This document shows, one piece after another, positions 368 through 63,497 of a stretch of DNA of 64,000 nucleotides; the stretch's first letter is position 1, and the number at the start of each line of letters is the position of its first letter. Source of the stretch: Dermacentor variabilis. Taxonomy: Eukaryota > Arthropoda > Arachnida > Ixodida > Ixodidae. The stretch is taken from positions 264,162,815 through 264,226,814 of the forward strand of contig NC_134568.1 of NCBI RefSeq assembly GCF_050947875.1, given 5' to 3'. A program made the translations under genes and the position numbers. Below the pieces are notes generated by a model. It saw only the letters and a program-made list of their open reading frames with translations, had not been told where the DNA came from and made no database searches.

Positions 368-453
368 AAACAAAACAAGACAGAGTAAGGTTACGGAGTA
401 CACTTACTTTTAAACAAAACAAGACAGAGTAAGGTTACGGAGTACACTTACTT
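367..453. repeat. 44-bp tandem duplication covering a splice donor
   Basis: Two copies with a 44-bp period (367-410 and 411-453) include the right SINE target-site repeat and the donor region of module 46 exon A, so a second GTAAGT lies 44 nt into the intron. Confidence 0.85.

Positions 454-63497: not shown

Follow-up and report, generated by a model that had tools for sequence, protein, structure and literature searches.

A 99-module array of a six-cysteine bead at one locus of the tick Dermacentor variabilis suggests a giant extracellular protein with a putative membrane anchor

Introduction

Proteins of the RGM family carry one RGM_N domain with a von Willebrand-type domain after it, and RAMP proteins consist of a single ectodomain and one transmembrane helix. 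DUF19, CPG4 and DUF1397 are found mainly in secreted proteins of nematodes and arthropods. Drosophila Dumpy, as described in PMC8520396, is a giant membrane-anchored extracellular protein built from many copies of small modules, with over 300 EGF repeats in addition to DPY and PIGSFEAST repeats. Here we analyze a 64,000-nucleotide stretch of the Dermacentor variabilis genome (the window; NC_134568.1, positions 264,162,815 to 264,226,814, assembly GCF_050947875.1) and its flanks, which hold a tandem array of exon pairs, each pair encoding a small six-cysteine module that we call a bead. Positions are given in window coordinates throughout. The array lies on the minus strand, so that positions above 64,000 are upstream of the window part and negative positions downstream.

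An earlier note, made from the letters of the window, had described a gene of at least 46 tandem modules that could not be placed in a named family, and had proposed a very large secreted or extracellular protein. We find roughly twice that number of modules. In the reading that we consider reasonably probable, the array is one giant gene whose product, an extracellular glycoprotein anchored in the membrane, has at least 9,038 residues, a mass of about 1 MDa and 99 helical disulfide beads, and would serve as a surface tether or a filament of the apical matrix.

Results

A single open frame crosses the window

The window model was built by moving from regular expressions to profiles of the two halves of the module, A (C1-x11-C2...C3) and B (YxxC4...C5...WxC6), and from these to splice sites. 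The minus strand carries 88 exons, which comprise 46 A halves and 45 B halves, with three A+B pairs fused into single exons. Together they form 12,367 nt in a single frame that stays open, with no stops, for 4,121 residues, in agreement with the roughly 4,100 residues proposed before. The model begins at 63497 and ends at 452, exactly the bounds given in the earlier note; its claim of 88 alternating exons stands in that the 91 halves alternate strictly along the window, and needs amending for the three fused exons. Each of the 45 complete window modules contains exactly six cysteines, as expected for the tandem six-cysteine module first described. The 46th has its B half starting at position 37 and leaves the window.

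The A and B profiles, which were trained on the minus-strand exons of the window, score up to 65.9 bits on that strand; on the plus strand they do not exceed 8.1 bits. When splice sites were sought in fixed phase at a profile score above 10, 86 exons were found on the minus strand and none on the plus strand. The fairest splice test asks what lies at positions fixed by the protein. There, 36 of the 40 A exons examined (46 in total) are followed by GT and one by GC, the rest being the three fused exons. AG precedes 40 of the 43 B exons examined (45 in total), in one case a fused exon where it is coincidental; the B exons lacking it are two fused exons and the exon at 63287, which was registered one residue off. 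Introns in the window have a median of 97 nt, and the largest (9,304 nt) precedes the module at 36122..38365. A exons begin in phase 1 and end in phase 2, and B exons begin in phase 2 and end in phase 1; each A-B unit is thus a symmetrical 1-1 module.

Two features of the exon structure were observed in passing. The intron between A and B is absent from the modules at 34202-33933, 9283-9023 and 2477-2214, all of which keep the C3-x8-C4 spacing exactly. GC rather than GT donors occur in the exons at 48024-47898 and 21188-21049, and outside the window at 76105 and 70324; of these, the donor at 21049 is a manual choice that could be mistaken.

The array continues in both flanks

We scanned the flanks on both strands. 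As the earlier note had anticipated, both ends of the array lie outside the window: it runs on the minus strand from +97,036 to -68,568, with its 3′ end in the downstream flank. The complete model has 195 exons encoding 99 modules, in 27,119 nt and 9,038 residues up to the stop, with unbroken A/B alternation, no phase errors and no internal stops. Introns range from 36 to 13,120 nt with a median of 98.5. AG precedes all 195 exons, and the donors are GT in 190 cases and GC in four, the last exon having none. Splice sites were among the criteria for picking exons outside the window, and part of the agreement there is therefore built in. Further downstream, from -68.6 to -140 kb, the scan returned only one weak candidate (-101855, profile score 0.9), at background level.

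Mean bead-to-bead identity is 22%, and linkers from C6 to the next C1 have a median length of 8 residues (range 4-23, 98 modules measured). There are 118 N-glycosylation sequons, distributed over 74 of the 99 modules. Comparison of modules by offset gave z 3.1 at offset 1 and z 4.5 at offset 4. Adjacent beads thus resemble each other a little more than remote pairs do, the pattern that ancient tandem duplication would leave. A permutation test for period 4 was weak: out of 2,000 permutations the counts were 107, 49, 33 and 295 at spans of 16, 24, 32 and 48, respectively. The peak at offset 4, together with the four modules of a neighbouring gene described below, hints at duplication in blocks of four. 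One module, near -19370, is in frame, has lost C3 and C6 and has a weak A donor (score -0.4); it was left out of the spacing, linker, identity, offset and start-candidate analyses, of the Pfam scan of outside modules and of the fixed-phase exon search.

The symmetrical phase raises the question of whether the exon pairs are alternative cassettes, since 1-1 beads could be skipped in frame, yielding a set of isoforms in place of a single giant protein. The phase is common to all beads and their identity is low, both as such a system would have them. Equal phase is, however, expected from any tandem duplication of one exon pair, and the argument from a frame-broken and hence skippable bead falls because the module near -19370 is intact. 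We regard the cassette explanation as improbable. Its boldest form, in which a single-locus, GPI-anchored (glycosylphosphatidylinositol-anchored) protein of about 1 MDa and about 99 RGM/RAMP-like beads is spliced from 1-1 cassettes into a large repertoire for non-immunoglobulin surface recognition in an invertebrate, seems to us more improbable still.

A conserved cysteine code with paired losses

Across the array, 92 of the 99 modules have six cysteines, four have four, three have seven or eight, and none has five. The surplus cysteines of the last three lie in linkers or in the tail and possibly reflect over-long exon ends. Among modules with exactly six cysteines (93, with the tail of the last module trimmed), C1-x11-C2 holds in 86 and C3-x8-C4 in 92, and the YxxC and WxC motifs are present, so the spacing originally described for the module is borne out.

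The four modules with four cysteines, all on the minus strand outside the window, have lost them in matching pairs: C1 and C5 in those at 97,036 and -17,847, C3 and C6 in those at 81,671 and -19,370. These paired losses suggest that the bonds are C1-C5, C2-C4 and C3-C6, the C2-C4 pair following by remainder. With three bonded pairs among 15 possible, the chance of four such losses would be about 0.2^4 = 0.0016 for a topology fixed beforehand, a figure that overstates the case in that ours was not fully fixed beforehand. The order so proposed would be the same as that of RAMP1, which we take to be 1-5, 2-4, 3-6. The RAMP1 pairs were not found in print in the literature examined, passages of PMC4504005 included.

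These data bear on a further possibility, that the array is a decaying and unexpressed relic. An orphan B exon at 97354-97203, on the minus strand at the 5′ edge of the array, has no A partner that we could find and was kept out of the model; it is what decay might leave behind, and to that extent counts against a functional gene. Against a relic stand 9,038 codons free of stops, six cysteines in nearly every module and the loss of cysteines only in pairs. An open frame and a cysteine code kept at so low an identity imply long-lasting selection, and we give decay hardly any credence. The intact module near -19370 led us to lower our estimate of this alternative as well as those of cassettes and of their boldest form.

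Fold and distant relatives of the bead

Fold prediction for single modules, a check that the earlier note had proposed, gave a confident helical bead. AlphaFold2 reached a pLDDT (predicted local distance difference test) of 94.3 with a pTM (predicted template modelling score) of 0.85 for the module at 9283-9023, and a pLDDT of 89.5 for that at 34202-33933. The predicted fold appears to resemble the RGMB ectodomain, and also the RAMP1 ectodomain in one of two models only (RAMP1 is the first VIA row for model 1 only). A mixed exon alignment was picked from random subsets with the cysteines in register, leaving out 21 of the 88 exon peptides.

A Pfam search with the modules had likewise been proposed. 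We scanned 45 window and 52 outside modules (97 in all) one by one at a loose threshold of E≤5. In the window set DUF19 was matched by 7 modules, RGM_N by 4, DUF1397 by 3, CPG4 by 2 and NRN1 by 1; the corresponding numbers in the outside set were 6, 6, 4, 3 and 2. When the 45 window modules were shuffled with their cysteines kept, DUF19 was matched once and the other four families not at all. The best E per recurring family ranges from 0.0006 to 0.0033. RGM_N (PF06535) is matched by 10 of the 97 modules with a best E of 0.00096, which is marginal. A profile search of the PDB with the window modules placed RGMB at 13.8 bits (E 0.66), with C-x8-C-x7-C and a tyrosine in register.

Several results weigh against this likeness. 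DUF19 (best E 0.0022 of 97 modules) reached 15.0 bits in the one member with bits, compared with a gathering threshold of 23.2, and CPG4 (best E 0.0033 of 97) reached 15.2 in the one member with bits, compared with 32.7. An implausible relative, DASH_Ask1, recurs in the same manner (3 of 45 and 4 of 52 modules), and lone unrelated families appear with similar E values (DUF7174 at 0.0014 in Pfam, a VOC model at 0.0005 in NCBIfam). The outside modules did not list RGMB in the PDB profile search. Other searches added little. PDB profile searches gave weak matches only (TRIAP1, RGMB, CDC37), two single modules had no match in Pfam, and the NCBIfam scan gave no sensible match. A protein-database search with the 45-module profile yielded 101 candidates of which none scored, and that database probably lacks the lineage. 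The whole-genome DUF19 search returned no matches and is uninformative, as none of 14 control genomes matched either. Literature searches on tick DUF19, tick T20D4.11 and giant tandem-repeat cysteine proteins of ticks retrieved nothing relevant, though this does not prove that no such work exists.

Taken together, the bead shows a weak but replicated closeness to RGM_N, DUF19, DUF1397, CPG4 and neuritin (NRN1). We likewise place the module in no named family; what has changed is that it is no longer without any likeness. It reads as a remote new branch of this helical disulfide group, outside any named family, and seems distantly akin to the receptor domains that bind growth factors.

The 3′ end, the missing 5′ exon and a head-to-head relative

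The last exon (-68,241 to -68,568) encodes the final B half and, after a polar stretch, a hydrophobic tail, SSWTVVVFCLAMIMTPFLLSPFTFRNFT, followed by the stop; 65 residues separate the last module from the C-terminus. The poly-A signal ATTAAA occurs 326 and 336 nt past the stop. The tail looks like a GPI-anchor signal or a membrane anchor with a very short cytoplasmic end. The protein proposed in the earlier note would be very large and extracellular as stated, and is probably not simply secreted, given the hydrophobic tail before the stop.

At the other end, a search of 97-131 kb for the 5′ exon with the presumed signal peptide of the giant gene returned weak candidates only. An open reading frame at 63559-63491 (MLLMIVMICSM...) was considered as a start and rejected because it sits inside the decayed 3′ end of a long interspersed nuclear element (LINE) with a (GATGAT)n-like tail. 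Copies of this LINE 3′ end with its GAT-rich tail occur at 63500-64000 and 59100-59800 and are diverged (66-67% alike); the flanks hold three more, which match the one at 59100 to 91-92%.

Upstream of the giant gene and head to head with it, the plus strand from 131,045 to about 136500 holds what looks like a complete small relative. It has a signal peptide, MRPVCALLLAMAVATG..., followed by a phase-1 donor, then four modules and finally a tail, STSFWALSAAVLLVLAQQRH, that ends in a stop; its exons were located singly. Beyond it, the region from 164 to 204 kb contains no modules (top score 7.6 bits, background level).

The neighbour bears on whether the 99 modules might be split among adjacent genes or alternative promoters, each giving a shorter protein of the same bead. 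It shows that small versions exist. Eleven introns exceed 3 kb, the longest being 13.1 kb, and these, with signal-peptide-like ATGs within introns, would allow internal starts; these points count against a single gene. Yet all 194 non-terminal exons reach a donor before any in-frame stop, so that no internal end is seen, with the limit that donors were a selection criterion outside the window. Moreover, the start candidate at 63559, among the most hydrophobic in the window, is the decayed LINE tail; others include those at 994 and -36980. We consider a split into several genes unlikely, and infer that a single transcript crosses the array.

The two C-terminal tails also speak to a different role, a shed or secreted multivalent decoy, for instance a host-facing ligand sink, in place of a tether. 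The beads vary at most non-core positions, and RGM, GFR-alpha and RAMP, to which the fold appears related, are ligand-binding ectodomains; both suit a decoy. The hydrophobic tails of the giant gene and of its neighbour instead favour anchoring, and a decoy appears to us distinctly unlikely.

Apparent confinement to one locus

Genome-wide searches covered the 2.48 Gb assembly (605 contigs). Of 71 candidates scored with a consensus-like B exon, 47 reached E≤1, and every one of these falls in the array. One complete module gave 6 matches among 27 candidates, again all in the array. The sensitivity of these searches is limited, for the four-module neighbour was missed by both. Within that sensitivity, the genome sequence places the bead at this one locus.

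Positions of the modules in the window

All modules of the window are on the minus strand and rest on the splice-site exon model, in which four of the donors and two of the acceptors were placed manually. In the order of transcription, the first is module 19 of the 99, at 63140..63497 (A 63497-63374, B 63291-63140; profiles and exon model), followed by 57535..57874 (A 57874-57751, B 57671-57535), 57125..57470, 55521..55909, 55004..55376, 52451..52819, 52007..52368, 51263..51707, 50838..51203, 50206..50737, 48978..49695, 48553..48896, 48105..48465 and 47670..48024, whose A exon has the GC donor. Past the longest window intron lie 36122..38365, 35685..36028, 35187..35534, 34529..35094, the first fused single-exon module (33933..34202), 32582..32934 (A acceptor by hand), 32086..32512, 28573..30948, 28161..28509, 27761..28104 (A acceptor by hand), 27300..27672, 26365..27225 (B donor by hand), 24267..26126, 23231..24159 and 21049..23167, whose B exon has the hand-set GC donor. 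These are succeeded by 18285..19381, 17787..18160, 17332..17689, 16277..17258, 15742..16087, 14722..15670, 9367..11646 (B donor by hand), the second fused module (9023..9283), 6831..8961, 6079..6418, 5476..5893, 3908..5371, 3444..3832, the third fused module (2214..2477, donor by hand), 1782..2131 and 634..1704. The module cut at the window end has its A exon at 452..572 and the first 37 nt of its B exon at 1..37, the latter running on to -99 in the flank.

Discussion

The locus, as we interpret it, most likely encodes 99 disulfide-locked helical beads on short linkers, with a C-terminal hydrophobic tail that would direct a GPI or membrane anchor. The product would be a glycosylated string of beads, probably hundreds of nanometres long. 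By analogy with Dumpy, the function that we favour first is that of an extended, multivalent tether at the surface or of a filament in the apical matrix. With the bead core fixed, the bead surfaces would be free to vary, and beads may bind ligands too. Since each bead is a symmetrical 1-1 exon pair, the array could have grown by duplication of whole beads with the frame kept.

If one transcript spans the array, a new kind of bead would join those from which giant surface proteins are built, and few arrays known to us that repeat one disulfide domain would be longer. Through its cysteine code and predicted fold, the bead may link families that are usually kept separate: RGM_N, DUF19, DUF1397, CPG4, neuritin and perhaps RAMP. 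The four modules with paired cysteine losses amount to a natural experiment on disulfide pairing, and the head-to-head relative provides a compact form that should be easier to handle in biochemical work.

None of the known systems matches the locus in full. The von Willebrand-type domain of RGM proteins has no room among 99 beads, linkers of 4-23 residues and a 65-residue tail. Likeness to DUF19, DUF1397 and CPG4 consists of weak matches that repeat across independent module sets, with the scores seen lying under the cut-offs. RAMP proteins have a single ectodomain, whereas 99 beads are present here. The proposed tick protein, with 99 modules and a hydrophobic C-terminal tail in its sequence, would resemble Dumpy in being giant, membrane-anchored and made of many small extracellular modules. 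Dumpy differs in its composition, of EGF, DPY and PIGSFEAST repeats, from an array that appears to use one type of helical bead with a GPI-like tail.
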